From contig LLCB01000004.1 of NCBI GenBank assembly GCA_001414345.1, positions 310,001 through 374,000 of the forward strand: a DNA stretch of 64,000 nt, given 5' to 3'. Of the stretch, positions 24,574 to 52,929 are shown piece by piece. Numbering within the stretch: position 1 is the first letter of the stretch; each line of letters starts with the position of its first letter. A program made the translations under genes and the position numbers. This DNA is from Hymenoscyphus infarciens (taxonomy: Eukaryota; Ascomycota; Leotiomycetes; Helotiales; Helotiaceae). Under the pieces are notes generated by a model. The model was given only the letters and a program-made list of their open reading frames with translations. It had not been told where the DNA came from and made no database searches.

Positions 24574-24810
24574 TAGGGAAAAAAATATTTCACCTCTAAA
24601 AAAATAACTTGAAAAAGATCGTGCGGAAATTAGAGAATTGCTTTCAACGTCAGATAAGTTACCTAAGTAGCAGTGGTAAAAATAGCTTGAATCTAAAGTT
24701 ACCTTCGTGCGAAAATTAAAATAAAATAAAACGTGACCAAGTTTTGGAAAGTAAATCAACTAAAAAGGTTGAAATATATAAGCTAGCGTGCTTGCTATCG
24801 TGCTTTTTCC

Positions 24811-24873
24811 CTCTGACGCGGAACCGAACCGGCAACCCCAGAACCGGTATGTCTGAGAGCCCTGCCGACAGGC
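24811..24873 (-). other. tRNA-like remnant
   Basis: On the minus strand GCCTGTCGGCAGGGC resembles a D-arm, CTCAGA...TCTGGG can form an anticodon-type stem, and GCCGGTTCGGTTCC resembles a T-arm. No acceptor stem is present. Likely a tRNA pseudogene or part of a tRNA-derived repeat. Confidence 0.3.
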
Positions 24874-25085
24874 AAAATAGTAAATTCGTTTATACGAGCT
24901 TATAGGTGTTGGATACATACGATCTCTAGATGATTTGGTTACTTTGCGACTGTTGCCTGATGTTACGATGCGACTGCGATTGGTAATTGTGATTGGCTAG
25001 AAAAAGGACTGACAAAATAGCCTCCACGGAATAGTAGCCCTCGGAGAACCAGTCAAGCCTCACACTTGCAGCTTTAGAAGCTAAA

Positions 25086-25370
25086 GTTCAATATAGAGAA
25101 TAGTACAGTTTTCGTAGTTTTCGTCTAGTTTTGAATATACTAAACTATACTACGGTTTTAGTACTATTAGTAGAACTAAGTAATAAATTAATAAAACAAA
25201 CTACGTAAACTATTATAGTTTTAAAAACTATAGATAAAAAGTACTATAAAAGTAGCTCTTTAGTACTAGTAGTAGCCTAGACCTTAGCTTAGATAGGAGT
25301 AAAGAATATAAGAGGTTAGCGTATCTTTAGTATAGGTTATAGAACTCTCGCTAGCCTTCTAGAGAGTATC
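25086..25370. repeat. AT-rich flank of the nested transposon block (left)
   Basis: TA-rich sequence outside element Y. TATAGAGAATA near its left end and TATTCTCTATA near 44046-44056 on the right are inverted, so the whole block may sit in an older element; the match is short. Confidence 0.35.
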
Positions 25371-25375
25371 TAGGC

Positions 25376-25552
25376 TCTAATAGCTCTCTATAACTATATA
25401 AAAGAAGTGCTTATAGAATAGTACCTTTTATTAAGAAAAACTAAACTAAAGAGAAAAGCAGAGAGTATAGATACTCTAGCTTTATTTATATATATTAAGC
25501 AAGTTCTTAGAAAAGTCTTAGAATAACCTAGTATATAACTAGGACTATTATA
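25376..25552 (-). repeat. 3' LTR of Gypsy element Y
   Basis: Matches 43458-43652 but lacks about 14 bp around the TTACGTAAGTAACG palindrome. Preceded by the duplication TAGGC. Confidence 0.88.
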
Positions 25553-26410
25553 CTACCTCTCTCTTCTAATAGGCCTCTTATAACTAAGTAGCTTTATTCT
25601 TTTTTAATATAAGAGTATTAATCTCTAGCTTACTATAATTCTCTCTTCTATTCTTATATACTACTTTCTATAATAGAAGAGCTACTAGAGAACTAGCTAT
25701 CTCTAGCTTCTTTAAATAGAACTTTTCTACTAGTTATAGTATATAGATTAGTTATTAAGCTAGATACTAATTAAGGTCTTTATTATAGCCTTTCTACTTA
25801 ATTTAGTAATAGAGAGACTACTATCTCTTTTTACTAGCTAGTATTTCTTTAACCTTCTATTTCTTTTCTTTATTTATAATAATTAGTAGAGATAGTATAA
25901 CTACTTATTCTAGTAAGAGATTATCTATAGCTTTATATAACTTTTTAAGAGTAAAAATAAAGTAGACTTTAATAGAAGCTAGTAGTTATAATTAGAAAGT
26001 AAAACCTACTTCTTCTAAGATCTTAAAAGAGCTAGCTATTTAGTAGTCTAGCTTTTAGCTTAGTTGTTAAGTTACCTAGTCCTTTATTATAATAAAAACT
26101 ATATCTTCTACTCTAAAGTCAACGTCTTATCTATACTTATTTACGTCTTATTTCTTCTTCTACTAAGTTTTTAATATCTAGATAGTTTTTATAACTACTA
26201 TAGCCTCTTTTTATAATAGCTGTTCTTTTATATTAGCTAGTTCTAGTATTTACTAATTAAATAAGGTTCTTAATATATATCTCTTTTATAAGTTAAAAGG
26301 TAATATTCTAATAGTATTATAAGATAATACTAATTATATATAGTCTATTATTAGAAGTATCTTTAACTAGTTAGTATAATAATAATTAATATAAGGCTAT
26401 AAGTACTAGT

Positions 26411-26601
26411 TATAACAGTCCTAGTCACATACGTTACTCACGTGACTAGGTTGTCCCGAGGCTTTACTAAGGCTTCGCTTAATATATATAAATAAAGCTA
26501 GAGTGTCTATACTCTTTACTTTTCTCTTTAGTTTAGTTTTCTTTAATATTAAATACTATTTTATAAGTACTCTCTTTATATATTTATAGAGAACTATTAT
26601 A
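26411..26601 (+). repeat. 5' LTR of Gypsy element X
   Basis: 191 bp. It carries a less mutated palindrome region (ACGTTACTCACGTGACT) than the other three LTRs of this family. Confidence 0.9.
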
Positions 26602-28192
26602 CTAAAACTAAACTCTTCTTCTTTATCTAAGAAGGCTTTTACTAATATCTTAATAATAATATATATATTTACTTATATTAAATCTTCTAAATCTACTATT
26701 ATCTTCTATAAAGCTAAACCTATTTATATTAAGTAGTAAGGTTTAGTATTCTTCTATTAGCTATATTAAGTCTTTTAAAAGTAACTTATTAACCTAAGAA
26801 CTATTCTACTTTATTTTAGAGTTAGTAGAGCTAATCTCTCTTCTCTCTTCTATTAATATTATATTCTAATCTAGCTTAAGAACTCGACTTACTAAAATAT
26901 ATATACTAGCTATTATTATACTACTACTACCTCCTCTTACTAAGGTAACTACTAGTTCCTTATAGTATAAGATCTCTAAATCACCTTTACTTAACTCTAC
27001 TTTATAATAAATCCTTAAAGTAATAACCTTATTAATAAGTAAAGTTTATAAACTTAAAATAAATACTTTAAATATAGCTAATACTTCTTATTAATATACT
27101 CTTACTTAGCTATAAACTCTTAATATAACTTATTCTCTTTCTATAGTTCTATTATTAAAGAAGATAAGTAGAATAGCTAATCTTTACTAATTTACTATAG
27201 AAGATAAATTTATCTATATAATCTAAGAAACTAAAATTATAACGAAGTTATCTATTAATACTAACTACTTTAAGTCTAAGAAAGTAAAGATAAATTTAAT
27301 CTACTATTATACTTTTAGAAGAGCTGAAAACTATATTTACCTAAGATATAAGTTTAATACTATAGATTAGTTTAATAGTTATAAAAAGATATTAACTTAT
27401 CTCTAAAATATTATTATTAGCTCTTATATATACTAAGAACCTTATATCTAATATTAAGATCTTATTATATTAAAAGAAAAACTTTTTATAACTTCTATAC
27501 TAAGTTCTAATAAATTATAAATAAAGCTAAAGTTCTCTAATAAAACTAGATAAAAGACTTATAAAAAAATAGTTAACTCTTATACTATACTAATCTCTTA
27601 TTATTATTAAGTTCTAAGCTAAAAGAGATATAAACTCTTTTTATAATCTTATAAGTAATATTAATAGTAACCTCTAAAATCTTACTTCTTAAAAAGTATA
27701 AGTAATAAACTTTCCTTCTACTTTAAACTAGTATACGTCTACTTCTATATCTACTAGCTCTTCTTCCTTTATAGCCTCTTTTATCTCTCTTAGATACTTT
27801 AACGCTTTTATTATAAATAACTACTTAACTTTAAGACTATTAAATAAGTACTTTAACTATAGTAAGCTTAGTTATTATATTAAAGATTATCTAAAGCTAA
27901 AGATATATAAAGTTAACTTTAAAGAGCTTAAAAGAGAAGATACTAGTTTAGAGTTAAGAAATAAAGAAGCTTAAAAGAAGACTTCTTCTTAAGTAAATAT
28001 AAGATTAATCTCTTTAAAATTAATCTATAGTTATTAATTAGTAGAAAAGCGTTTACTTTACCTAATATAATAACTATTAATAGATTTAGTATATAAACTA
28101 CTACTTTTAATAACCTTAGAGTAAATATCTTTTCTTTTATAAATATATAACTTAGTTATAACTTTATAAAGTTTTATAGTTTAAAGACTAAA

Positions 28193-28365
28193 TGTCGGTA
28201 TATATATTTAAGAGGTAAATAGCGATTCGGATTAGTATACGTAGGTATACGTGCTTCTCGCTTAAGAGCTACTTAAGTAGGCATCGTAGCTAGCTTTACT
28301 TAGTATATACGAACGATAATATAACTCTTTTTATATCGCTTTTATAACTATAAGTTATACTAATA
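28193..28365 (+). repeat. 5' LTR of Copia element Z
   Basis: 173 bp, direct copy of 34211-34383. It is followed immediately by CTGATTAGTAG, a possible half-tRNA primer-binding site. Confidence 0.9.
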
Positions 28366-31300
28366 CTGATTAGTAGATATATAGATTAGATACTTAGTTA
28401 CTTTATATATTTCTACTATAGATATACTTATATAAAAGTAAACTTAATATTACTAGTAGACTCCTCTTCTCTGATTATAACTCCTTCTACTATTTAATAA
28501 CTTTTTGATAATATACTATAAACGCTTCTTAAGATAGGAAGTGCTAATTGCGAATATTAACTTCTTACTAACCTCCTTTTATCTACTAAGATAATTTATA
28601 CTCTCTAAGATACTTATTTACCTGAAACTTGAATTCTCTTTTACCTACTAAGTAGAGTATAAATAGACTTTCGATAACATCTAAATTCAATTTAAGTAAT
28701 AATAATATCTATAATATCTATAATATCTATAATATAATAGATATACTAGTACTGATTTCGACGACTTTAAAGGCTTTAACTTTAGTACTAAAACAAGTTC
28801 TAAAGCTAGCACTAAAGCTAAAGTCGATATAGATAGAAGAGACGATTTTTACTACTAAAAGAGAAGAGGAGTATACTAAAGAAGAGAACGAAGACCTTCT
28901 TCTTTAGAACGAATTTTAAGTAGACTTTAAAAGATAAGATTAAGATAAATTCGCTAAAATCTACTAATCTACTACTACTAAGTTATAATAAACACTTTAT
29001 AGAAGAGGTATATAGGTTAAGATAGATAGACATAAGATACTTATATCTTAAGCACTATATAACACCGTTACTAAGGTTAACTAAACTAAGTAGTTAGACG
29101 AAGAATTAAAAGATATAGTATTAGAAGGAGCTAGGACTAAAGACTTTAGTTCCTATTATAAATCTATGTTAGAATACGCTAAAAGATAATAAAAGCTATA
29201 GTAATAATATCTATAACCTCTATAACCTCTATAATAATAACCTCTAGCTGAAAATATTACTTAAAACACCTGATCTAAGACGAAGGCTAGAGACGAAACT
29301 TTATAAGCATCTACTATATAATAATAATAATAATAATAACCGACACCTTTAACGACTTTAATCCTACCGACTAAAAGGAAAGACCTAAGCGATCTAGTAC
29401 GACTTTTAATCTAACCTTTAGGTCTACTAAAAGACGACTAGACCTCCTTTTTTATATCTTATTAATTTAGCGAAGATACTAGTAGCGACGATTTTAATAA
29501 TACCTCTAAGTATCTAGAATATAATTAGTAATAGAATAATCTTAGTAGAAGATTACTAGTACGAATAAATATAGTATATTTCGAACTAGAATTGACTTCT
29601 CGAAGTTTAAGAGGTTAAGACTACTCTTATATATTAGGCACTTTTATAAAAGCTTATAAGGACGATTAAAAGTATAGTAGAAAAGAAGATAACTTTATAA
29701 TTAAAGTTATAATATTTAAGAATATATATAAGAGAAGTAGGGTATTACTAGCGATTTACTCTCTTACTTTCTCTACTATACTAAAAGGTAATGCTTTAAA
29801 TTACTTTTATATTATACTTTTTAATAAAGATAATAATTAATCTTTTAAGGTTTTATCTATATTTATATAATAATACTTTAAAGATAAACTTTATAAAAGA
29901 GGCTAATTATCTAAATAGAATAACATCGATTTATAGGAGATAATATAAGTATCTAGAGTATTAATATTATAGTCTTTTAAGGATATATTATTAAGACTTA
30001 ATTTACTAAGATTTTCCCTCTTTATAGATTTTTATATTAATAGTTAGTTTTTAAATAAGCTAATTTTAGTATATAAAAAGGTCTTAGATTATACTATTAT
30101 AATATTAACCTTACTCTAAGACTCTTTAATTTCTAATACTATTACTCTTCTACGAAGTTTAATCTAATTCTATATAAAAGTCTACCTAGAGATAGTTATA
30201 AACAAAACTATAATAACTAAGAGATACTTTTATAAGAGCGGATAATATAGTACGAATAAATTTAGTAATATAGATTAATATAAGAAGAAGAGGATATATT
30301 ATATATATAGAAAGGACGACTATTTATCTTAGGATTATAGTTAAAAAGAGTAGGACTATTACTTTACTAAATAGACTAATAAGAATTCTAGATACTTTAA
30401 AAGTAAGCGAGATAACTATACTAGAAAGGTATATAATATAAATATAGTATATACTTAGAGTACCTAAGAGGAAGAGATATTAGAGATACTTTATACTATT
30501 ACTCTATTAAAAGAAGATAGTTACTTATTAGATACTAGTTTAGATAAAGAAGTTTTCTATTATAATATTACTTTTATAAGATTTATTAACAATTTAAATA
30601 CTAAATAACTTACTATAAATTTAATAAGTTTAGTATAAAGATATACTATTAATAGATATGTTCTATAAAACCTAAATAACCTAAATAATACTTCTAACGT
30701 TATATATAAATTTATAAAGGAAGTGTTTATAATAATAGCTAAAAGATATATAAAAGAGAACTTCTTTAGTATAATAATTAATACTAGAGTAGTTTAAAAG
30801 TTAAGTATAAGATATAACTAATATCTTATATATATTAGACTTATTAAAAGCGTTCTAATTAATAAAGATATAAAGAGTTAATTTAATATCTAGTTTAGTA
30901 AAGGATATACTTTATCTTTAGAATTAATAACAATTAATATATTAATCAGAAAAGCTAAATTCTATATAGTATAATCTAATACCTCTTTTATCCTTTATAT
31001 TAATAATATAGATAATCTAAATATTATTCTAAATAATCTTTAAAATATACTTATCTAAGAGAATAAGAAAGAGATAGAAGTTAAGAGGTTCTTTATTATA
31101 TAATAATTTAGATACCCTTTTCTACTCTAGGATAAAGCTATATATAACTTTATATAAGAGTACCTGACCTTTCTTATAGATATTAATATTTAAAGACTTT
31201 ATAGGTAATTTAGCTACCTATTAGTACTAAGATTATAACGTATACTAGAAAGAGCTAGGTATTATATTAACTAAGACATTCTTTAATATCTTATTAAATT

Positions 31301-34210
31301 CTATAAATACTATTAAAAGTATAGAAGTTTACTAGGCTAGTTTAAGTTTACTTTTTATAATAACTTTAAATTTAATTATAGTGTTTTAATTAATACTTTC
31401 TTTCTTAATAAGTAGGCGGTCTTATATTATATAAACGAAGTAATAAGGTATTAAGTAGGTAACTTTTTATTAAATATAAAAGCAACGACTATATAGGAGG
31501 TCTTTTAAAGATATTAGATTAATATATATCTTAAACTCTTTAACTATATTATTATAGATACTAGGATAAACTTTATTAGAAAAGACTTTATATACTCTAC
31601 TACTGAAATAGGTACTATAGTAAAAACTATACTAGTTAAGGTATATAATTTAATTAGTATAGTAGAATAATACTATAGACTAATTTAACAAGTATATAAT
31701 ATTATATATAAATAAGAGCTTTATCTCTTATAAAGTTTAGTACTTTAAATAGCTTTTAAAACAATTAATAATATAGTAGGCCTAAATAGACTAGTCTCTA
31801 CTCTATTAGTATATAAGGTATATACTCGAATAACTATAAATAATATACCTTCGTAACTAATTTCCACGAGGTCTAAGACTTATAAGAAGACTACTTAAGA
31901 AGTATAAAAGTGGATTATATCCTATTAAGTTAAAGAAGCTCTTAATATATAAAATAGACTAATTAACTAAGTTAAGAACTTACTCTTAAATTTAGACGTT
32001 TTAGTATAAAGGGAGTATATAAAGTCTTAGATAGGACCTTTTATCTTTTAAGGAATCGAGAATAAGGACTATATTATAGTACTACTAAGTAGTCTTATAA
32101 AGTTTTAATCTATAGTTATAAAGCTATACTTTATTAAAACTTCTAAAACTTTTAGAATAGTACTAGTAACTAAGGAAGTTTCTAGTATAATACTATCTAA
32201 AACGACACTATAACCTTATAAAAAAGAGGGAACTTTTAAGTAATAGAGTAGGTAGAATGTTAAATAATATTTACCTTCTTTCTAATATCAACTTTAATAG
32301 TTATAAGTCCGCTAAAACACCGATATTCTAGAAACTATACTAGAACCTTCTTAGAAGTATAGATATAGATAGTCTTAAAAGTATCTAAGACCTTTAAATA
32401 AGTCTTTTAAAGTATTATTCTAATAGTTAGAAACTTTTATAAATAATTTTAACTATATCACTCTTAAAGATATTAGAACTTTTCTTACTAATTTAAGTAA
32501 ACCTTATAACGTCGAAGTATTTATAGCTAATAATAGTATAGTATATATTAAATTATAATAAAAGGAGATTAATAGATTAACTAATTAAGGTGTTTTTAAG
32601 ATTATTACCTAGAAGGAGTTGCTTTCTAATACTAGAATATTTAGATTATACTTTATAGATAATATTAAATTTAAGAGTACTATACTTGCTTTTATAAAGT
32701 TAAGATTAGTTATCTAAGTATATAATAATACTAGGAAGTCGCTAGTACTTACCTAGGCGTCTACTATTTAGAGAGTAAGCTAGAGAATAATCCTTATACT
32801 TATTATAATACTTTTAGGCTTATAAGTATTTATTTAAGATATTACATAAGTGTATATATAATTATTAACTAACTTAAATCGGAAATTCTTTATATATTCT
32901 TTTAAAGGTTATCTCTAATAGGAAGATATATTCTTTAAGGTAATTAGACTATTATATAGTATTCTAGAAGCTAGTAATTACTAGTTTATAACGTACTATA
33001 AACACTATATTATAAGGCTTATAATAAAACAGTTAACTTTTAACCTCTATCTTTTATATATTAAATTATACTAGTATAACGAGTAAGTAAAGTTAGATAT
33101 CCCTTTTAGTATAGTAGGCTTTTAAACTAATAATACTCTTATACTTACTAATAACACTTTTACTAATAAAGAAGAGCTTACTATTAACGAAGCTAGATTT
33201 ATATCTAAGAAGAGAGAAGAGCTTACTATTAACTATTTAATTAAATTTAATAGAGAGCTAATTACTAAGTATTATAACAGCTTTATATCTCTTACTTAGG
33301 ATTACGTAAAACACTTAGATTTAGTATAAAAGGCTTTATCTAAGATATCTAATATAAAAGGGACATTATATATAGTAGATACTAAAGATTAATATATTAT
33401 ATAACGTGCTAGAGAGGTATACTTAGCTATAGTATTCTAGTCTAAGGCTGCTTTCGACTTATTATATACTACTTAAACTATTAATTCTTAAGATAATAAT
33501 ATTTTACTTCTTAATAAGCGAATTTAATAGTAAATTAATAATCTCTTAAAAAGACTTAAATTTATTAAATTAGATAAATCTTCTCTAAAGTTATATACTT
33601 TTACTAATAGATTATTTACTAATAATAAGGACTTATTATTATAAATCAGTTATATTATTACTCTTATAGATAAAGATAATAATACTAATATCTTATATTA
33701 GTCTTCTACTAAATATAAGAGAGTTACTTATAGTTTTTAGTATTAGAATTATATATAATAAGCTCTAGATTTAACGCTATAGCTTTAATAAAATCGACTT
33801 TTAAAAGTATCTTAGGATTTAAGATACTACTTATAGTATATACTAATTCAAAGTCTATTTATAAATATATAGCTAAATTAGGTACGACTAAGAAGAAGCA
33901 ACTAATAATTGATATTATATACCTACGAGAAGTATATAAATTAAGAGAGATTAATAAGATTAAATAGATTAATAGTAAGAGTAATCTTATAGATACTATA
34001 ACTAAAAAGGGTTACTATAATGCTCTATAAAAGTTGATTAATACTAATAAGCTAGATATTAATCTTATAGAATAGGTAGAACGAAATAAGAGACTGAAAT
34101 AGAGCCTTCTTATTAGTCGAGGATAGGGAATAGAGAGCTCTAATTAGTTAGCTTAGATATGTGATTTTCAATAGTTTTAAGTAACTTCTATCGTTTTAAA
34201 GAAGTACTAG

Positions 34211-34383
34211 TGTCGGTATATATATTTAAGAGGTAAATAGCGATTCAGATTAGTATATATAAGTATACGTGCTTCTCGCTTAAGAGCTACTTAAGTAGGC
34301 ATCGTAGCTAGCTTTACTCGGTATATACGAACGATAATACAACTCTTTTTACATCGCTTTTATAACTATAAGTCATACTAATA
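34211..34383 (+). repeat. 3' LTR of Copia element Z
   Basis: 173 bp, direct copy of 28193-28365, with transitional differences only in the positions I compared. Confidence 0.9.
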
Positions 34384-35314
34384 CTAAAAGACTTCTTACT
34401 TTTATTAAGATTTATAAATATAATAGAGAAATTAAGAGTAAAGCTACTTATTATCTCTTTTTAAATTATATCTTAAATAACTATAAATTCTTTAATATAC
34501 TATTTATTCTCTTAAACTTAGGTTTATATAATATTATTCTTAGTTAGAGGTTCTTTAAATACTTTTATATTAATATTAATATAACTTATTAAAAACTACT
34601 CTAATATAATAACTTTAAGCCTTACTTCTCTACTTAATAGCTAACCCCTCTTCTTTAAAACGCTATATAACTAAAAGACTTTATACTCTTTTACTAGGAT
34701 AAAGCTAATACTTATAACTAAGCTATAGAAATAGATAAATAATACTAATAAGATAAAAGACTCTTAAAGCTTATAAATTACCTTAAAATTAATACTATAA
34801 CCTTAACTAGTTATACTCTAACTATATATAGTAGAAGAGGCTATAAGTTCTTAATATAAGTATAATACTAGGTTATAAAGAGAGAACTTAAAAGTATTAT
34901 AAAGAAGGTACTTACTCTAGTATACTATTAGAAACTCTTTATCTTAAAGAAGTTAGATCTTATTATTAATATTTTAGTTATTTTAATTATAGAAATATAT
35001 TATTACTTATTTTAAAAAGATAGTAAGATATTTACTATAAGTATATATGAAATTAATACTATTATAGCTAATTAAGAGCTAGATATAGCTTCTAATATTA
35101 CTCTTTTTAATAAGTATTAAGACTTTAAAAAAGTATTTTTTAAGACTATTTTAAATACTCTGTTATCTTACTAATACTATAACTATAAGATTAATCTTAA
35201 AGGTTTAAATACTTTTAGATATTTCTCTTTATATAAGATATCTATAAAAGAGTTCTTAGCTATAAAGAAATATATTTTAAAAAATCTCTATAAAAGGTTT
35301 ATTAAATATAGCTA

Positions 35315-35832
35315 ATCGCTCAGTCTACCTCTTACCTAATCCGCTTCGCGTATTAGATAAGAGAGAGTAATACGATAAAACTAGTAATACGACTACTTTT
35401 GTTTTATACTAAAATCGCCTTAACTAGCCTCTAATAACTCCTCACCTTTGCTACTAAAACTACTCTAATATGTTCCTACTATTAATATATAGCTTAAACT
35501 TATATTTAATCTTTAAAATATAATTATATCTTCTATATTCTAGGCTTTACTAAATTTTTCTAGAGATTTAGTAGTAGCTTTCTTAGAAGTTAGATTTAAG
35601 AACTAGATAGATACTAAATAGATAAATCTTACTTTATATTTCTATTTATTAAGGTTAAAATAAGAGACTCTAATTAAAATTAGAATATAATAAAGCGTTG
35701 TTGTTTTGTTATATATTTTTAAAAACAATGTATTTTGATATAAACTAAAAGTAGTCGTATTACTAGTTTTATCGTATTACTCTCTCTTACCTAATACGCG
35801 AAGCGGATTAGGTAAGAGGTAGACCGAGCGAT
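35315..35832. mobile_element. 518-bp element W with 86-bp terminal inverted repeats
   Basis: The first and last 86 bp are inverted copies with two differences, both G/A. The termini read ATCGCTCGGTCTACC, next to TA on both sides (35313-35314, 35833-35834). The middle 346 bp has no coding sequence. The homologous site in Y (complement of about 40960-40970) has a single TA and no insertion. TA duplication suggests mobilisation by a Tc1/mariner-type transposase, so W is a MITE. The long inverted repeats could fold into a hairpin in RNA. Confidence 0.85.
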
Positions 35833-38735
35833 TAGTCTCTCTTTACTACTTCTATTTTATTTATAAAGAAAGTAAATAGAAGACTATATTTCTATATTAA
35901 CTTCTAAAAACTTAATAATCTTACTTAAAAGGACTACTATCTATTACTTCTAATTAATAAAACACTTATATATATTAGTTAAACTTATATTTTTACTAAG
36001 CTAGATATCTAATAAGCCTTCTACTATATATAAATAGATCTAAATACTAAAGAATTAACTACTTTTTATACTTATTATAAAACATATAAGTATAAGATTC
36101 TATTCTTTAGTTTAATAAATAGCTTATCTATCTACTAATATAATATAAATAATATCTTATTTAACTATTTAGATAACTTTTACTTTACTTATTTAGATAA
36201 TATCCTTATTTACTTATTAAATGTTTTTAAATATAAAGAGTATATATAAAAAGTCTTTTAATATCTTAAAAATACTAAGTTATAAGTTAATATTAAGAAT
36301 ATAAGTTTAATATTAAGAAGATAAAATATCTTAAGTTTATTATTAGTATTAATAGTATTAAAGTAGACTTTAAAAAAGTCTTAGTAGTATAAGAATAGTA
36401 AGGTTTAAAAATAATAAAAGGTATTTAAAGCTTCTTTAGTTTCTATAACTTTTATTAAAAGTTTATTTAGAACTATAGTATAATTATAAAGCTCTTAGTA
36501 TATTTAATATAGAATAATATATCTTTTAATTTTAATAAGAAGTACTAGGAAGTGTTTAAAGACTTAAAAGTAGTACTTACTTCTATACTAATCCTCTACT
36601 ATTACTCTTCTAACCTTTTTATTATAATTAAAATAGACGCTTTAAATAGAATTATTACTAAAGTATTATAATAATAATAAGCTAATAGAGAATAGTATCT
36701 TATAGTCTACTTTAGTAAGACTATATCTCTAGCTAAGTATAACTATAAAATATATAATAAAAAGCTACTTACTATTATATACTTACTTATAAAATAGAGA
36801 CTAAAACTATAAAGTACTTATTTAAAGATCTATATTTATACTAATTATAAGGTGTTTAAGTACTTTATAACTATTAAGTAACTTACTACTTATTAAGTAA
36901 GGTAGGCTAAAGCTTTAGCTAAGTACTATTTTATTATTATATTCTATTTAAGATATAAGAATAAGAAGATAAATACTTTAACTTATAAAGTAAATAAGAT
37001 ATACTTATAAAAGGAACTTAAAAAGTAGTACTAGACTTATATACTCTTAATAAAGAAATAAGTTAATATAAAAGCGCTTAAAAACCTAGGAGTTAAGATA
37101 AGCTTAATTATACTAGCTCTAGTTAATAAAGACTACTTCTAAGAATTATTTATACTTTTAGAATAAATCTACTAAGTAAATAAGGATATTATAATATTTT
37201 AAGCTATATAAGTATAAGTTAAAACTAATACTAATTTCTTATATACTTTAGAGAAAGGCTTTTTACTTTACTAAGACTACTTAGTAGTACTAGATATAGA
37301 TATACTAAGAATAGACCTAATTTATAAGGCTTATAATTAGATACTTTTAGCTTACTTAAGAAGAGTTAAGACCTACTAGATTCTATATTTAAGATATATT
37401 TAGCGAAATATAAAAGCTAATATTATAAGATATATATAAAACTATTATAAATATAGAAGAGTAGACGTTCTTTAAGATAAAATACCTAGCTATCTACACC
37501 TACTCCTAATACTACTATATATATAGTAATATATAGCTATAGATTTTAAGTCCTTTCTAGTTAATAAGTATAGTTATAATAATATATTTATAGTAATAGA
37601 CTACTTATCTAAGTAGTCTATTTTAATACTCTATTATAAGAATATTACTTCTAAATAGATAGTAAGGTTATATATTAAACACGTTTAATAATACTATAAG
37701 CTTCTAAAAAGTATAATATTAGATAGAGGCTCTTACTTTATTACTATATTTTAAAGAGAGTTTACTTAAACCCTAGGTATTTAGCTTTAACTCTTTACTA
37801 TAAGCTATACTTAAACTAATAGCTAGACTAAGATTATAAATTAATATCTTAATTAGCGCTTATAGCTATATATTAATTATTATTATACTAATTAGTCTAA
37901 GATTCTTCTAATAATAGACTATATATAGTTAGTACTATCTTATAGTACTATTAGAATATTACCTTTTAAGTTATAAAAGAGATATATACTAAGAACCTCG
38001 TTTAACTAGTAAATACTAGAACTAGCTAATATAAAAGAACGGCTATTATAAGAAGAGGCTATAGTAGTTATAAAGACGATTTAAGAGGTTCTAGAAGTTA
38101 GCTAAGTAAATATATTAAAAGCTTAATAGAAGAAGGAATAAGATGTAAATAAATATAGATAAGACGTTGATTTTAGAGTAGAAGAAATAGTCTTTATTAT
38201 AATAAAGGACTAGGTAACTTAATAACTAAGCTAAAAGCTAGACTACTAGATAGCTAGCTCTTTTAAGATCTTTAAGAAAGTAGGTTCTACTTTTTAATTA
38301 TAACTACTAGCTTCTATTAAAGTCTACTCTATCTTTACTTCTAAGAAGTTATATAAGGCTATAGACGATCTCTTACTAGGATAGGTAGTTATACTACTTC
38401 TGTTAATTATTATAAATAAAGAAGAGAAATAGGAGGTTAAAGAAATACTAGCTAGTAAGAAGAGATAGTAGTCTCTCTATTACTAAATTAAGTAGAAAGG
38501 CTATAATAAAGACTTTAATTAGTATCTAGCTTAATAACTAATCTATATACTATAACTAGTAGAGAAGTTCTATTTAGAGAAGTTAAAGATAGCTAGTTCT
38601 CTAGAAGCTCTTCTACTATAGAAAGTAGTATATAAGGCTAGAAGAGAGGAGTATAGTAAGCTAGAGGTTAATACTTCTATATTAAAGAAGAATAAAGCTA
38701 CTTAGTTATAGAAGGCTTATTTAAAAGAGAGGTAG

Positions 38736-38926
38736 TATAATAGTTCTAGTTATATACGTTACTTACGTAACTAGGTTATTCTAAGGCTTTACTAAGGCTT
38801 CGCTTAATATATATAAATAAAGCTAGAGTGCTTATACTCTTTGCTTTTCTCCTTAGTTTAGTTTTTCTTAATATTAGATACTATTCTATAAGTACTCTCT
38901 TTATATATTTATAGAGAGCTGTTATA
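38736..38926 (+). repeat. 3' LTR of Gypsy element X
   Basis: 191 bp, direct copy of 26411-26601; followed by the target duplication CTAAT. Confidence 0.9.
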
Positions 38927-41900
38927 CTAATTAAGGTATTAGTTTATAATTTTAGTCTAGCTATTAGTTTAAGTATAGTTTATAGTAGAGAATTAAAGCT
39001 AGATACTTAGAATTTAAGTAAACTCTCTCTAAAACATAGTAATAAAGTAAGAGCCTTTATCTAATATTATACTTTCTAGAATCTTATAGTATTATAGAAT
39101 ATATTTAATATATAACCTTACTATCTACTTAGAAGTAATATTCTTATAATAGAGTATTAAAATAGACTACTTAGATAAGTAGTCTATTACTATAAATATG
39201 TTATTATAACTATATTTATTAGTTAGAAAGGACTTAAAATCTATAGCTATATATTACTATATATATAGTAGTACTAGGAGTAGATATAGATAGCTAAGTA
39301 TTTTATCTTAAGAAACGTCTACTCTTCTATATTTATAATAGTTTTATATATATCTTATAATATTAGCTTTTATATTTTACTAGATATATCTTAAATATAG
39401 TATCTAGTAGGTCTTATCTCTTCTTAAATAAGCTAAAAGTATCTAATTATAAGCCTTATAAATTAGGTCTATCCTTAGTATATCTATATCTAGTACTACT
39501 AAGTAGTCTTAGTAGAGTAAAAGGCTTTTCTCTAAGGTATATAGAGAATTAGTATTAGTTTCTACTTATACTTATATAGTTTAAAGTATTATTATATCCT
39601 TATTTATTTAGTAGATTTATTCTAAAAGTATAATTAATTCTTAGAAGTAGTCTTTATTAATTAAAGCTAGTATAATTAAGCTTATTTTAATTTCTAGGTC
39701 TTTAAGTGTTTCTATATTAACTTATTCCTTTATTAAGAGTATATAAGTCTAGTACTACTCTTTAAGTTCTTTTTATAAATATATCTTATCTACTTTATAA
39801 GTTAAAGTATCTATCTTCTTATTTTTATACTCTAAGTAAAATATAATAATAAAATAGTACTTAGCTAAAGCTTTAGCCTACTTTATTTAATAAATAGTAA
39901 GTTACTTAATAGTTATAAAATACTTAAGTACTTTATAATTAATATAAATATAGATCTTTAAATAAGTACTTTATAGTTCTAGTCTCTATTTTATAAGTAA
40001 GTATATAATAGTAAGTAGCTTCTTATTATATATTTTATAGTTATACTTAGTTAAAGACATAGTCTTACTAAAGTAGGTTATAGAGTACTATTCTCTATTA
40101 GCTTATTATTATTATAATACTCTAATAATAATCTTATTTAAAACATCTATTTTAATTATAGTAGAAAGTATAGAAGAGTAGTAGTAGAGGATTAGTATAG
40201 AAGTAAGTACTACTTTTAAGTTTTTAAACACTTTCTAGTATTCCTTATTAAACTTAAAAGATACGTTATTCTATATTAGATATACTAATAGTTTTATAAT
40301 TATACTATAGTTTTAAATAAACCTTTAATAAAAGTTATAAAAACTAAAGAAGCTTTAAACACCTTTTACTATTTTAGAAGCCTACTATTTTTATACTACT
40401 AAGACCTTTTTAGAGTTTATTTTAATATTATTAGTATTAATAATAAACCTAAGATATTTTATCTTCTTAATATTAAACTTATACTTCTTAATATTAACTT
40501 ATAACCTAGTATTTTTAAAATATTAAAAGACTTTTTATATATACTTTTTATATTTAAAAATGTTTAATAAGTAAATAAGAATATTATTTAAATAAGTAGA
40601 GTAAAAGTTATCTAGATAATTAAATAAGATATTATTTATATAATATTAGTAGATAAATAAACTATTTATTAAATTAAATAGTAAGACTATATACTTATAA
40701 GTTTTATAGTATATATAAAAAGTAGTTAATTCTTTAGTATCTAGATCTATTTATATATAGTAGAAAGCTTACTAAATATCTAACTTAGTAAAAATATAAG
40801 CTTAACTAATATATATAAGTATTTTATTAATTAGAGGTAATAGATAGTAGTTCTTTTAAGTAAGATTATTAAGTTTTTAGAAGTTAATATAAAAACATAG
40901 TCTTTTATCTACTTTCTTTATAAATAGAATAGAAGTAGTAAAAAGGAACTAGTTATACTTAATAAACCTTTTATAAAGATTTTCTAAGATATATTCCTTT
41001 ATAGCTAGTAGCTTCTTAGTAGATATTTTATATAAAAAAGAATATTTAAAAGTATTTAAACCTTTAAGATTAATCTTATAGTTATAGTATTAATAAGATA
41101 GAAGAGTATCTAAGATAGTCTTAGAAAATACTTTCTTAAAGTCTTAGAGAATAGCGATTATAAAAGCTATATCTAGCTCTTAATTAGCTATAATAGTATT
41201 AATTTCATATATACTTATAGTAAGTATCTTACTATCTTTTTAGAATAAGTAATAATATATTTCTATAATTAAAATAACTAAAATATTAATAATAAGATCT
41301 AACTTCTTTAAGATAAAGAGTTTCTAATAGTATACTAGAGTAAGTACCTTCTTTATAATACTTTTAAGTTCTCTCTTTATAACCTAGTATTATGCTTATA
41401 TTAAGGACTTATAGCCTTCTTTACTATATATAGATAGTATATAACTAGTTAAAGTTATAGTATTAATTTTAAAGTAATTTATAGACTTTAAAAGTCTTTT
41501 ACTTTATTAGTACTATTTATCTATTTCTATAGCTTAATTATAAGTATTAGCTTTATTCTAATAAGAAGATATAGAGTTTTTTAATTATATAACGTCTTAA
41601 GAAAGAGGAGTTAGCTATTAAGTAAAGAAGTAAGGCTTAAGGTTATTAGGCTAGAGTAACTTCTAATAAGTTATATTAATATTAATATAGAAGTACTTAA
41701 AGAACCTCTAGCTAAGAATAATATTATATAGACCTAAGTCTAAGAGAATAAATAGTATATTAAAGAATTTATAACTATCTAAGATATAATTTAAAAGGAG
41801 ATAGTATATAGCTTTACTTTTAATTTCTCTATTATATCTATAAATCTTAATAAGAGTAGAAAGTCTTTTAGTCTTTAAACTATAAAACTTTATAAGGTTA

Positions 41901-43457
41901 TAACTAAGTTATATATTTATAAAAGAAAAGGTATTTACTTTAAAGTTACTAAGAGTAGTAGTTTATATACTAAATCTATTAATAGTTATTATACTAAGTA
42001 AAGTAAACACTTTCTTATTAATTAATAACTATAAATTAATCTTAGAGAGATTAATTATATATTTATCTAAAGAGGAGTCTTCTCTTAGACTTCTTTGTTT
42101 TCTAACTCTAAGCTAGTATCTTCTCTTTTAAGCTCTTTAAGTTTAACCTTATATATTTTTAGCTTTAGGTAATCCTTAATATAATAACTAAGCTTACTAT
42201 AGTTAAAGTACTTATCTAATAGTCCTAGAGTTAAGTAGTTATTTATAGTAGAAGCGTTTAAGCGTTTAAGAGAAATAAAAGAGATTATAGAAGAAGAAGA
42301 GATAATAGGTATAGAAGTAAGTATATACTAGTTTAAGATATAAGTAAGGTTTATTACTTATATCTTTTAAGTAGTAAGATTTTAAAGGTTATTATTAATA
42401 CTACTTATAAGATTATAAAAAGAGTTTATATCTCTTTTAGCTTAGAACTTAGTAATAATAAGAGATTAGTATAGTATAAGAGTTAATTTACTCTATAAGT
42501 CTTCTACTAAGTCTTATTATATAACTTTAGCTTTATCTATAATTTATTAGAACTTAGTATAGAAGTTATAGAAAGTCTCTCTTTTTAATATAATAAGGTC
42601 TTAATACTTAATATAAGCTTCTTAGTATATATAAGAGCTAATAGTAATGTTTTAAAGATAAGTTAATATCTCTTTATAGCTTTTAAACCGATCTATAGTA
42701 TTAAACTTATATCTTAGGTAAATATAGTTTTAAGCTTTTCTAGAAGTATAGTAGTAGATTAAGTTTATTCTTACTTCCTTAGACTTAAAATAGTTAATAT
42801 TAATAGATAGCTTTACTATAATCTTAGTTTCCTAGGTTATATAAGTAAATTCGTCTTCTATAATAAATAGGTAAGAATTAGCTATTTAACTAGTCTTCTT
42901 TAATAATAGAGCTATAAAAGAGGAACGAGTTATATTAAATGTTTATAATTAAATAGAAGTATATTAATAAGAACTACTAGCTATATTTAAAGTATTTACT
43001 TTAAGTTTATAAACTTTACTTATTAATAAGGTTATTACTTTAAAGATTTATTATAAAGTAGAGTTAAGTAGAGGTAATTTAGAGATCTTATACTATAAGA
43101 GACTAGTAGTATCCTTAGTAGAAGAAGGTAGTAGTAGTATAGTAATAGCTAGTATATATATTTTAGTAGATTAAGTTCTTAAACTAGATTAAGATATAAT
43201 ATTAATAGAAGAAGAGAGAGAGATAGACTCTACTAACTCTAAAGTAAAGTAGAATAGTTCTTAGGTTAATAGATTATCTTTAAAAGACTTAATATAGCTA
43301 ATAGAAGAATATTAGACTCTATTACTTAATATAAAGAGGTTTAATATTATAGAGGAGAATAGTAGATTTAAAGGATTTAATATAGAGTAAATATATATAT
43401 TATTATTAGAATATTAGTAAAAGCCTTCTTAGGTAAAGAGAGAGAGTTTAGTTTTAG

Positions 43458-43652
43458 TATAATAGCTCTCTATAACTATATAAAAGGAGTACTTATAGAA
43501 TAGTACCTTTTATTAAAGAAAACTAAACTAAAGAGAAAAGCAGAGAGTATAGATACTCTAGCTTTATTTATTTATATATATTAAGCAAGTTCTTAAAAAA
43601 GCCTTAGAATAACCTAGTTACGTAAGTAACGTATATAACTAGGACTATTACA
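43458..43652 (-). repeat. 5' LTR of Gypsy element Y
   Basis: 195 bp. Its outer end reads TGTAATAG on the minus strand, so the original TG start is preserved here while other copies show TA. Followed by the duplication TAGGC at 43653-43657. Confidence 0.9.
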
Positions 43653-43657
43653 TAGGC

Positions 43658-44380
43658 TTCTTTTAATAGTATATTAATATTATTATTAGAATAATAGTAC
43701 TACTAATAAATCTAAAGTTTATTATAAAATAGATAATAAGAGCCTAGCTAATAGAAAGACTAGAAAAAACAATCTTACTTAAAAGAGCCTAGTTTACCTC
43801 TTTTCTAGGCTTATAGTCTTATTAAAACTATAAAATTTTAATATATTATTATATATTATTATATAATATTATAGAATATTATATAATATTTAAAAGCTAC
43901 TTAGTTTATAAAACTACGTAGTTTTACTATATAAAACTATACTAACTATAGTTTTATATAAGTAATTCAAAACTAAGTAAAATTTCCTAAAAACTAACTA
44001 TATAGTAAGTTAGTATAGTTAGTTCTTTAAAAACTATACGTATTCTCTATACTAATCAGTTCTTAATATATAGATGAATCTAGAACAACCTAAGATTCTA
44101 TTCTAATAGTAATCAAGGACTTAGGAACTTGTGAAGGCTGTTTTGAAACCTAAGTTACAAAATGATATTTAGTAGCTAACGTCCTCTCTGTTAAGTTCTA
44201 TATCATTTACAAATACTACATTCGTGATCTTGACCCTATACAAAACCTCGCATACGAACTAAAAGCCCCACCACAACCCACAACAAAACATCCACAGATA
44301 TTCCGTGAAAAACTTCACTGACTCATGGTAAGGCCCCACCCAAGCCCGAACATAATACTAAATACCACTCTTCCATCTCA
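43658..44380. repeat. AT-rich flank of the nest (right), then unique DNA
   Basis: To about 44070 the sequence is TA-rich with internal inverted copies (ATAAAACTATACTAAC near 43930-43960). Beyond that, ordinary composition upstream of tRNA-Asp. Confidence 0.4.
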
Positions 44381-44394
44381 ACAAGAACATACTG

Positions 44395-44547
44395 TCTTTG
44401 ATGGTCTAGTGGTTATGATTTCCGCTTGTCAAGAAAAGCCCTATCTAGGGCTTGATAAGCGCGGGAGACCGGGGTTCGATTGTAAGTATTTCCAAAATTC
44501 AACATCTAAAGACAAGCAACTAACAATAAAACAGCCCCGTCAGAGAG
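44395..44547 (+). tRNA. tRNA-Asp (GTC) with two introns
   Basis: Acceptor TCTTTGA (44395-44401) pairs with TCAGAGA (44540-44546, one T-G pair); discriminator G at 44547. The anticodon stem TCCGC/GCGGG encloses loop TTGTCAC with anticodon GTC. The usual intron follows position 37 (44432-44459, 28 nt, with an AGCCCTATCTAGGGCT hairpin). The T-stem CGGGG and loop TTCGATT (44470-44481) are followed not by CCCCG but by a 53-bp insertion, 44482-44534, beginning GTAAGT and ending ACAG; CCCCG follows at 44535-44539. Without both introns the RNA is 72 nt with full pairing. The internal promoter is intact: A box around 44402-44413, B box GGTTCGATT upstream of the insertion. A T7 run at 44586-44592 is a suitable terminator. 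Confidence 0.88.
44482..44534 (+). other. Spliceosomal-type intron in the T-loop of tRNA-Asp
   Basis: 53 bp between tRNA positions 60 and 61. It has a perfect GTAAGT donor, branch-site candidate CTAAC at 44520-44524 with the branch A 11 nt before the end, and acceptor AACAG. Size and signals match the introns of protein genes here (45-61 bp is the common class). No T4 run is present inside. Confidence 0.8.
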
Positions 44548-45478
44548 AATCTGAGGTTCAATTCCCCAATAAGAGTTTATTTCTATTTTTTTGTCTTTTT
44601 CCGGCGCTGATAGTGACCCCGATTCTCTTCATTTCAGAAATCCAACATATAAAGCCCTCCATCTCAACCCTCCACAACAGTAGACTTTGGAGAGCCAGGA
44701 GAGCGTTAGTCCAAAGGCTCTAGCATCTAGCTTGGGTTTTCGTTCTTTTCTTTATTTTCTTTTTTATCCCCGTTGTTCGCTTCGCTCTGAAAAAGTAATA
44801 GCATATATCAAATCCTGCGGGCTCCGACTTCGGGCCGATCGACTTTTTTCGATTCCACATCAGAGAGTACAAACTCTGAAGGTTATTGTTCAACTCTTTT
44901 TTTTGGCCTTTTTGGGTATTTTAATCAGGACTTACGATGAAATTTTGCTTCTTTCCAGCCTTGTTCTGAGGGAGATCGGATGGGAGATGAGGAGTGAACA
45001 AGAAAAAGAAGTGGAAAGCCCGTCTCCAGTAATAGATAAAAGGTTATCTCTTCAACTCTAGTTACTTGTGATCGATCGAAAGTCCGAGACCTTCCATAAG
45101 GAGTGATGTTATATTTTCCTTCCGCCTTTTTTCAAACGGAGAGACACCCCCCAAAGGCAAAAGGAGCTGAAGGTGAATCCACTCTCTTATCATCTACTCT
45201 TTCGCTTTTGATCCTCAGCAAGATGTGGAAATCGAGGACTACTGTGTCTCTCAGTTCTCATGCCAGAAAAGGTACGGGTGAAAACAAATCCCTTTATCCC
45301 AGTCAGTATGCGAACACTCTAAAAATATTTTGACACAAATCCTTTTCCTTATTTCACGAGTCTTGTCTATAAAGAAGTCAACTTAATTAATTCGTGTAGT
45401 TCCGGTGTTTCCATTTTGAGAAGGAGTTTGAGTAAAATATCATACAGAAAATCATTTAGTATTTGACAACACACAATT
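44548..45478. other. Region downstream of tRNA-Asp and 3' flank of the F-box gene
   Basis: GAGGTTCAATTCCCC at 44564-44578 is a second T-arm-like string just after the tRNA. Plus-strand frames at 44687-45061 and 45103-45333 lack recognised motifs (the first has no ATG start); they are not called. Confidence 0.35.
44586..44592 (+). terminator. Pol III terminator of tRNA-Asp
   Basis: Run of seven T, 39 nt after the discriminator base; the first run of four or more T after the gene. Confidence 0.6.
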
Positions 45479-47608: not shown

Positions 47609-47701
47609 GCCTTCGTAGCTCAATGGTAGAGCGCGTCACTAGTATTAGAAGTTACTTTCTATGATATGACGAGGTTGTGTGTTCGATTCGCACCGAAGGC
47701 A
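47609..47701 (+). tRNA. tRNA-Thr (AGT) with one canonical intron
   Basis: Acceptor GCCTTCG/CGAAGGC pairs 7 of 7, D-stem GCTC/GAGC, anticodon stem CGTCA/TGACG, loop CTAGTA plus A with anticodon AGT, T-stem GTGTG/CGCAC with loop TTCGATT, discriminator A. The intron after position 37 is 47645-47665 (21 nt). Unlike the Asp and Phe genes in this window, its T-loop is uninterrupted, so it serves as a local control. Confidence 0.93.
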
Positions 47702-50820: not shown

Positions 50821-50962
50821 GCGGCTTTAGCTCACTTGGGAGAGCGCCAGACTGAAGTCCACTTCAGACATTGAAATCTGGAGGCACTGTGTTCGATGTA
50901 AGTTTACCTTACAAAAATGGAAACAATAAATTCTAATATGTCAAATAGCCACAGAAGCCGCA
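50821..50962 (+). tRNA. tRNA-Phe (GAA) with two introns
   Basis: Acceptor GCGGCTT (50821-50827) pairs perfectly with AAGCCGC (50955-50961); discriminator A at 50962. D-stem GCTC/GAGC. Anticodon stem CCAGA/TCTGG with loop CTGAAG plus A, anticodon GAA. The canonical intron after position 37 is 50858-50875 (18 nt, the size usual for fungal tRNA-Phe). The T-stem CTGTG and TTCGAT (50887-50897) are followed by a 51-bp insertion, 50898-50948, starting GTAAGT and ending ATAG; then C and CACAG complete the loop TTCGATC and the stem. Removing both introns gives a 73-nt tRNA with all stems paired. A T7 run at 51004-51010 can terminate transcription. Confidence 0.88.
50898..50948 (+). other. Spliceosomal-type intron in the T-loop of tRNA-Phe
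   Basis: 51 bp between tRNA positions 59 and 60. Donor GTAAGT, branch-site candidate CTAAT (TTCTAATATG near 50931-50940), acceptor AATAG, no T4 run. It lies one nucleotide from the equivalent site in tRNA-Asp. Confidence 0.8.
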
Positions 50963-51003
50963 ATTCTGCGAACGGTAGATCACTATCATCTTTCGAACAA
51001 TTC

Positions 51004-51233: not shown

Positions 51234-52929
51234 CTAAGTACTCCTCAACTTAACCATCCCCCTCTTCCGCTTACCTCCAACCTCTCGTCCTTCCTCGATT
51301 TCCAACATAGCCTCCCTCTTCTTCTCGCCTACAAGTTTTAGAGCTTCACGGATAACTCTCGTCTCCAAATTAACACCTTCTTCCTCCCAAGCCTCCAACT
51401 GTCTCCCCACCCTCGCCTCGATAGCTTGAACAAGCTGCACATCCCTCTGTCCCACAAACGTAACAGCATCTCCCTTCCTCCCCGCACGAGCAGTTCTTCC
51501 CACGCGATGAATATAATCATCCGGGTCGCGGGGGATATCGTAGTTTATAACCAACCCGACTTCTGGGATATCGAGACCTCTGGCTGCGACGTCTGTTGCT
51601 ACTAGGATTCTAGCTGCTGAGGCACGGAAACGACCGAGGTTGTCTATTCGCTGTCTTTGGGGGAGTTTGGAGTGTAATGCTGTGACTCGGTGTTCGAGGA
51701 GACGGAGAAGATGGGTGAGGTAGTCGGCTGTGGAAGTGCGATTGCAGAATATGATGATTGATTTTGGGAGATTCGTGTCCGTGAGGAGGAACATGTGTAA
51801 ATAATGCTCTCGGTGAGTAACTGGAATTTGGAGGTGCATTTGACGAAGAGAGGATGGGATGGCGAGTTTCTGGGTATCGACTTCACAAACGAACACTGGT
51901 GGTTTTCCTGGAGTTTGTGGTCGCTCTTTTAGAGCTCGAACTTCGGGGGTAATTGTTGCTGTGAAGAGTAATGTTTGTCTCTTTGCTGGGGGTGGGAGGA
52001 CTGAAAAACATTCTTCCACGTCTGGTAGCATACTTCCTGCCATTCCACCCGCTAATAATCGATCCGCTTCATCAAGTACTACCATTTTTACCCTTCTTAA
52101 TGCACAAATTGTGTCCTCTCCCGATGTGCGAATATGATCTGCTAGCCTTCCTGGAGTCGCAATTACAATATGCGGCCTTTGGGCTAAGGCGGTTGCTTGA
52201 GGTCGCATATCTGAACCGCCAGTAATGAGGACGGCTTTGAGACTTTGAGGGGAGGATATCGCTTTAATTTGCTCGAAAATTTGCAAGGCAAGTTCTCTAT
52301 TTGACCATTAGCCATGGACAGCTGAAATACCAGTTGCACAAGCACAACTTCGCGCAGCCATGATGCACGTACCTCGTTGGTGTCAAGATCAAGGCAAATA
52401 TTCCAAAAGGATCCTCAGCCCATTTCTGCAAAATCGGCACAGCAAAAGCAACAGTTTTCCCAGAACCAGTCCTACTACCACCAATACAATCCCTCCCTTT
52501 CAATATCTCCGGTATACATCCCTTCTGAATCCCTGTCGGTCTCTTAATCGCCATTGAATTCAAACTCCCAACCAGCCATGGCTTCACATCCAAGGCAGCA
52601 AAACTTGTATTGGGGTCTGTGGGAGCTAGTATCGTACCCGTAGTGGGTGGAGGAACAATCGCTTTCGTTGTTGCGCTTTTCTTACTTATTCTCGAGGGCA
52701 CGGAGGAGATTGCGATTCGTGGTTCGTCATCGTCGTCCGAATTATCTAAAATAGGCCCTGGAGAAATCTTTCTTCGTTTTCGCGATCCTTGACTATCGAG
52801 GCAATCTGAGTCTGAATCTACCCCGCTGGATTGTTCTCCCGCACTTTCTTCTGCGGATGAATTGGCGTCATCGTCGAATTGGCGAACTGGGCTACTTCGC
52901 ACATCTTTTGGGGTATTTTGCGAGGGCAT
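51234..52929 (-). CDS. DBP8: DEAD-box ATP-dependent RNA helicase Dbp8, 539 aa
   Basis: Exons 52929-52373 and 52296-51234 with a 76-bp intron (GTACGT donor, GGCTAATG branch candidate, AATAG acceptor) that splits the Arg codon of PTRELA. Order of motifs: acidic Ser/Asp-rich N-terminus (1-100); Q-motif region ([14 protein letters not shown], then KRPTGIQ); motif I GSGKT 155-159; Ia PTRELA 184-189; TPGRLAD; DEAD 261-264; motif III TAT 298-300; [19 protein letters not shown] 449-458. Sequence and length fit Dbp8, a nucleolar helicase of the small-subunit processome needed for 18S rRNA maturation with its cofactor Esf2. The TAT in place of SAT and the compact C-terminus without a long basic tail agree with that. 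Start ATG 52929 opens [12 protein letters not shown]. Confidence 0.9.

Follow-up and report, generated by a model that had tools for sequence, protein, structure and literature searches.

The window, the whole 64,000-nucleotide stretch of Hymenoscyphus infarciens DNA that was analysed (C336:310001-374000, from a genome of 65.6 Mb in 742 contigs), carries a tRNA-Phe(GAA) gene interrupted in both the anticodon loop and the T loop. Read from the sequence of the plus strand, its 5' exon extends to position 37 (50821..50857) and is followed by an 18-nt anticodon-loop intron of the ordinary type (50858..50875, also placed by Aragorn on the joined exons), whose exact ends may move by 1-2 bases and within which CTTCAG is complementary to the anticodon region. 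The middle exon (50876..50897) runs to T-loop position 59. There, between positions 59 and 60, sequence and a comparison of five genes place a U2-type-like GT-AG intron of 51 nt (50898..50948, plus strand) with the donor GTAAGT, the branch motif TCTAAT and a terminal TAG; it reads GTAAGTTTACC...TTCTAATATGTCAAATAG, and the 3' end of this insert, which starts with GTAAGT, is TCTAATATGTCAAATAG. The 3' exon CCACAGAAGCCGCA (50949..50962) completes the gene. It is followed by a 3' trailer (50963..50998) with a hairpin that the five Phe genes recovered all share, and then by a T-run terminator.

With the insert taken out, the T stem CTGTG/CACAG and the acceptor stem GCGGCTT/AAGCCGC are re-formed, and Aragorn calls the joined exons of this gene (L070) as tRNA-Phe(gaa) and makes no call on the unjoined sequence. 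A sequence-only reading of this DNA had described an insert of 51 bp with a donor, a branch candidate and an AG end, flanked by stems that pair after its removal, and its coordinates, anatomy and pairing are all borne out. In the window the interrupted tRNA-Phe was missed by both Aragorn and Rfam; the sole gene they found there, at 47609-47701, is tRNA-Thr(AGT) by sequence and has a whole T loop.

The same arrangement recurs in a tRNA-Asp(GTC) gene (44395..44547, plus strand; sequence and Aragorn) with an anticodon intron at 44432-44459 and, by alignment with an uninterrupted Asp gene (L075), a 53-nt GT-AG intron between positions 60 and 61 (44482..44534; GTAAGT, branch ACTAAC, CAG). The two inserts do lie one nucleotide apart, as the earlier reading held. 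It was also right that two differing genes are interrupted, but Phe and Asp are different isotypes and not isoacceptors as it named them. G+C content is 20-25% across window positions 24001-44000 and 37-49% in stretches next to them. Low-G+C blocks of this kind resemble the RIP-mutated repeats of filamentous ascomycetes.

Interrupted tRNA genes across the assembly

A 35-nt pattern from the 5' part of tRNA-Phe, searched genome-wide with up to three mismatches, found five matches on five contigs, each of them a whole tRNA-Phe gene interrupted exactly at 59/60 by 51 to 60 nt. The interiors of these inserts differ, while GTAAG, a terminal AG and, 12 nt before the end, the A of a CTRAY branch motif are retained. 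The Phe insert is therefore not a product of chance, since five genes with different intron interiors keep the same splice signals. A search of the whole assembly for the Phe T arm and acceptor in uninterrupted form, again allowing up to three mismatches, found no match. Every tRNA-Phe of the fungus would come from interrupted genes, unless the assembly has a gap or a Phe gene departs from the pattern by more than three mismatches. Because all Phe genes found are interrupted and tRNA-Phe is essential, the insert must be removed.

For Asp, a genome-wide pattern gave eight matches, of which five are interrupted at 60/61, one is ordinary (L075) and two look broken (L074 and L080). Alignment of L075 with the five interrupted genes shows a clean insertion. 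One of the five, L081, has several exon changes of C-to-T or G-to-A type and retains its splice signals. L081 and the elongator-Met-like L085 both have many apparent C-to-T/G-to-A changes, resembling repeat-induced point mutation. The sequence-only reading would have given way had Phe and Asp genes been normal in sufficient number with just the two interrupted; instead five of five Phe genes and five Asp genes carry the insert.

At least 21 genes of seven isoacceptors are interrupted (Phe, Asp, Ser-AGA, Ser-GCT, Gly-GCC, Arg-CCG and Leu-CAG), at six positions: 34/35, 52/53, 57/58, 58/59, 59/60 and 60/61. None of these is 37/38, the site of canonical eukaryotic tRNA introns. Recurrence of the same type of insert in Ser, Gly, Arg and Leu supports the earlier suggestion of a systematic feature of the genome rather than a single accident. 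Gly-GCC has six genes, three with an insert at 52/53 (L082-L084) and three without (L037-L039). A Ser pattern had seven matches: Ser-AGA L109 (= L055) and L111 and Ser-GCT L112 (= L067) are interrupted at 60/61; L113 and L114, which form a second Ser-GCT type, are interrupted at 57/58; and L108 (AGA) and L110 (GCT, = L015) are ordinary. A further Ser-GCT gene with an insert at 60/61, L057, came from a splice-motif pattern search. Compared by eye, interrupted and uninterrupted Gly genes, and Ser-AGA and L108, again differ by a clean insertion. Arg-CCG L119 is interrupted at 58/59, and in the Leu gene L050 the insert lies within the anticodon, at 34/35, such that CAG arises only on joining. We read L050 as Leu-CAG, which its long variable arm fits, although Aragorn's calls are Thr(cgt) before joining and SeC(tca) after it. 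No uninterrupted paralogue was found for Phe, Arg-CCG or Leu-CAG.

Aragorn called a tRNA in 21 of 21 sets of joined exons and in two of 21 unjoined sequences (Gly L082 and Leu L050), where it placed one long intron in the anticodon loop. The anticodon called on joined exons was unexpected in Phe L072 (ggt), Ser L114 (aac), Leu L050 (tca) and the damaged Asp L081 (atc). Stems split by the inserts are retained, and in Ser the acceptor pair 7-66 is A-T in L055 and G-C in L057, across the insert. A run of five T lies 11-57 nt past the gene end in 16 of the 17 genes tested (all but L111, L113, L114 and L119 of the 21) and 78 nt past it in the remaining one, L050. TTTT occurs in one of 17 inserts against 3.4 expected (P 0.09), and terminator avoidance within the introns, not being significant, was set aside as a signal.

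GTAAGT patterns led to the first five Asp and first three Ser genes. Exon patterns or the Rfam family, with no requirement for splice signals, supplied the Phe, Gly, later Ser, Arg and Leu genes. The bare pattern GTTCRANNGTAAGT has 18 matches genome-wide, eight within tRNA genes (five Asp, three Ser) and ten outside; its reversed control has 20. Because the pattern is no commoner than its reversed form, the case rests on the tRNA context. The pattern GTTCRANNGTRNGT matched 93 times (130 reversed), and 11 of the 75 matches beyond those 18, inspected by eye, included no tRNA gene. The Rfam tRNA search returned 55 matches, of which 19 lie on C340, presumably mitochondrial, and the other 36 were read. 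We give no genome total or fraction, since the Rfam lists lack the tRNA-Thr of the window and the ordinary Asp gene L075. More inserts may lie in the isotypes beyond the one-by-one check (Ala, Asn, Cys, Glu, Ile, Pro, Trp, Tyr, Val and others).

Splice signals and interiors of the inserts

All 21 inserts are 50-70 nt long, start with GT and bear marks of U2-type introns, namely a 5' hexamer complementary to U1 and a branch motif followed by AG; a further mark, clean insertion relative to an uninterrupted paralogue, is seen in Asp, Gly-GCC and Ser-AGA. The 5' end is GTAAGT in 16, GTAAGC in three, and GTACAT and GTAGGT in one each, so that GTAAG is present in 19 of 21. The 3' end is TAG in 16, CAG in four and AAG in one. 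Every insert has a YTRAY branch motif (CTAAC, CTAAT, TTAAC or CTGAT) whose A precedes the end by 10-12 nt. One protein-coding intron in the window served as a comparator, a 76-nt intron of the neighbouring DEAD-box helicase gene on the minus strand (52297..52372; GTACGT...GCTAAT...CAAATAG), flanked by matches to positions 1-55 and 55-165 of the Pfam DEAD profile. Its signals are alike, and its end, GCTAATGGTCAAATAG, resembles the TCTAATATGTCAAATAG of the Phe insert, this being the sole mRNA intron compared.

Beyond the splice signals, no sequence is common to all 21 inserts. With the first 6 and last 18 nt of each insert omitted, mean interior identity is 0.49 between isotypes, 0.48 for shuffled sequences and 0.54 within isotypes; a few between-isotype pairs are slightly above the shuffled values, the highest reaching 0.69 against a shuffled maximum of 0.66. 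An alignment for common origin, which the sequence-only reading had proposed, thus gave no support for one, the mean identity being that of shuffled sequence. Separate gains appear likelier than a common origin, though unproven by these comparisons. Introners of fungi are near-identical copies of spliceosomal introns, of which many are gained per genome. The inserts are like them in being many probable spliceosomal introns in one genome, but their likeness between isotypes is on average that of shuffled sequence, and an introner element was rejected because the copies are not highly similar.

Proposed transcription and removal of the inserts

We consider it very probable that the inserts are U2-type spliceosomal introns in nuclear Pol III tRNA genes and that the spliceosome excises them, while tRNA endonuclease deals with the anticodon intron. 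Pol III would transcribe the interrupted gene, U1 would pair with GTAAGT and U2 with CTAAY, and excision of the insert by the spliceosome in the nucleus would rebuild the T arm. The refolded pre-tRNA would proceed to end processing and export, and tRNA endonuclease and ligase would then take out the separate anticodon intron. We infer Pol III transcription and spliceosomal removal. The spliceosome would act before the other steps, while the RNA is still in the nucleus, since a folded T arm is needed for end processing, for export and for modification of the T loop. Two machines would act on one transcript, since Phe and Asp also retain an ordinary anticodon intron. It is likely, with somewhat less assurance, that supply of at least one essential tRNA (Phe), and in part of several others, requires spliceosomal processing of Pol III transcripts. 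On this view introns were gained independently and repeatedly in or near the T loop, two machines work in sequence on one tRNA, the Leu-CAG anticodon arises solely through spliceosomal joining, and a B box re-sited outside the Asp genes makes up for their broken internal promoter.

The flanks bear on which polymerase reads these genes. A TATA/AAATA-like motif lies 31-43 nt upstream in 9 of 17 interrupted and 18 of 33 Aragorn-called genes (L050 being counted in both sets) against 105 of 990 random places, so the interrupted genes share the upstream make-up of tRNA genes. The internal B box suffers from the insert: it scores -1.8 in Phe, 9.7 in Asp and 10.8 in Ser (L055, L057 and L067), against 12.0 to 17.5 in the 33 Aragorn-called genes from which the matrix itself was built. 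Gly, by reading, keeps its B box, as the intron ends in G before GTTCGATTCC.

Eight nucleotides past the tRNA-Asp of the window lies an extragenic B box, GGTTCAATTCC (44555..44565, plus strand; score 12.0). A perfect GGTTCAATTCC is found 8 nt downstream in all five interrupted Asp genes (that of the window, L077, L078, L079 and L081), inside a strongly kept stretch; these are paralogues and not five independent cases. The uninterrupted Asp gene has no downstream B box (best score 4.0), and among the 33 genes only His L042 comes near (10.8). The Asp motif looks like a possible re-sited Pol III promoter. The His genes L041 and L042 have B-box-like motifs, GGTTTAATTCC and GGTTTGACTCC, 28-29 nt downstream, and their internal B box is whole.

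No replacement B box was found in the flanks of Phe, whose internal B box the insert breaks, and only Asp has a clear one, a point against our preferred reading. The Phe trailer hairpin is kept in the window gene, L069 and L071-L073, and is followed by a TTCGAAC-like element. Two of its pairs are changed on both sides, which is equalled by 31 of 500 shuffles of just five sequences, so that covariation support for the hairpin is weak.

It is possible, if unlikely, that Pol II reads these genes. This rival departs from our preferred reading in the polymerase alone, as the inserts would be spliceosomal introns under both. Pol II is the usual setting of spliceosomes, and the broken B box of Phe and a TATAAAA that precedes the Phe gene of the window by 80 nt would suit it. 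However, the other four Phe genes have no TATAAAA within 98 nt upstream, the downstream T-runs and upstream motifs are placed as in ordinary tRNA genes, and the extragenic B box of Asp likewise points to Pol III.

That the interrupted genes are dead, with ordinary or unassembled copies used in their place, we regard as very unlikely. Uninterrupted Asp, Ser-AGA, Ser-GCT and Gly-GCC copies exist, beside which the interrupted ones could be dispensable; L081 is damaged by its C-to-T or G-to-A type changes, and an assembly of 742 contigs may be incomplete. Against this, no uninterrupted Phe gene was found, and stems, splice signals and the Phe and Asp 3' flanks are retained while the intron interiors diverge.

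It is highly improbable that the tRNA splicing endonuclease removes the T-loop inserts at bulge-helix-bulge (BHB) motifs, as it does archaeal non-canonical introns, even though they lie in the same tRNA arm as the T-arm introns of Cyanidioschyzon merolae (in the available part of PMC9602550). BHB-like pairing was found in two Ser paralogues (L057 and L067), above the 0.3 expected from shuffled sequences by a simple test of our own rather than a published model, but 19 of 21 inserts are without it, and BHB introns were rejected as a general account. Nor would this route account for the GTAAGT, the AG and the constant spacing of the branch motif in inserts that are otherwise unlike. Group I or II introns are dismissed, as the inserts are only 50-70 nt long and Rfam (E up to 5) found tRNA-Thr alone in the window.

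Known systems and further candidate loci

In the textbook division, protein enzymes splice tRNA and the spliceosome splices mRNA; single tRNA genes here seem to need both systems. If our preferred reading of spliceosomal introns in Pol III genes is true, tRNA supply would be coupled to spliceosome activity, the spliceosome would have access to the Pol III transcripts of many genes, and intron gain could be studied in genes of which the structure is known to the single base. The question can be put to a direct test with tRNA-Phe, because the search turned up no uninterrupted gene for it. Some fungi have an mRNA-type intron in their U6 snRNA genes, which is a spliceosomal intron in a Pol III transcript, as the inserts probably are, but concerns one snRNA gene, as against several tRNA isotypes here.

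Spliceosomal introns were reportedly described by Bhattacharya et al. in 2000 from ascomycete nuclear rDNA, chiefly that of lichen fungi. Such ascomycete rDNA introns are established (available portions of PMC8527467 and PMC6652019), and budding yeast excised those of lichen rDNA from Pol I transcripts (PMC8527467, same portion), a precedent for the removal proposed here. As far as these partial texts describe them, the rDNA introns, which yeast removed when tested, share with the present inserts their small size, their GT-AG ends and their place in the gene of a stable non-coding RNA that Pol II does not read, or in the case of the inserts probably does not; unlike them, they sit in Pol I rRNA genes, whereas the inserts are in tRNA genes with internal promoters. 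In the red alga C. merolae, T-arm introns occur in nuclear tRNA genes, their removal is described as not understood, and Pus4 is inactive on pre-tRNA with a T-arm intron (PMC9602550, in the part available). The D- and T-arm introns of archaea and C. merolae resemble our inserts in lying outside 37/38, T arms included, and some beside an anticodon intron (PMC8450103, PMC9602550; both in part). Unlike archaeal introns, which are searched for by BHB motif (PMC8450103, available sections), the inserts carry mRNA splice signals and no general BHB.

By title or start of abstract, no report of spliceosomal or T-loop introns in tRNA genes appeared among the matches listed, most subscription journals being outside the coverage. 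The search of tRNAscan-SE 2.0 for non-canonical introns is described, in the accessible part of PMC8450103, as belonging to its archaeal mode. Because of this restriction, and because Aragorn calls no tRNA in 19 of the 21 unjoined genes, isotypes can look missing from a fungal genome.

Two candidates were kept out of the 21. Arg-TCT L089 (C108:85751-86007) has a D-loop insertion of about 50 nt ending in TTAACAGTTTAACAG, with ambiguous splice points; the options are GC-AG, or GT-AG with a long D loop, and L001 is an uninterrupted Arg-TCT gene. The Arg-ACG-like L086 (C720:190521-190841) has a T-stem insert (GTAAAT...TACTAAT...AAAG) and an imperfect fold, and is perhaps a pseudogene. A tRNA-like sequence on the minus strand, L044 (C145:40351-40526), is called with a UCA anticodon and has a 104-nt insert in its anticodon loop.
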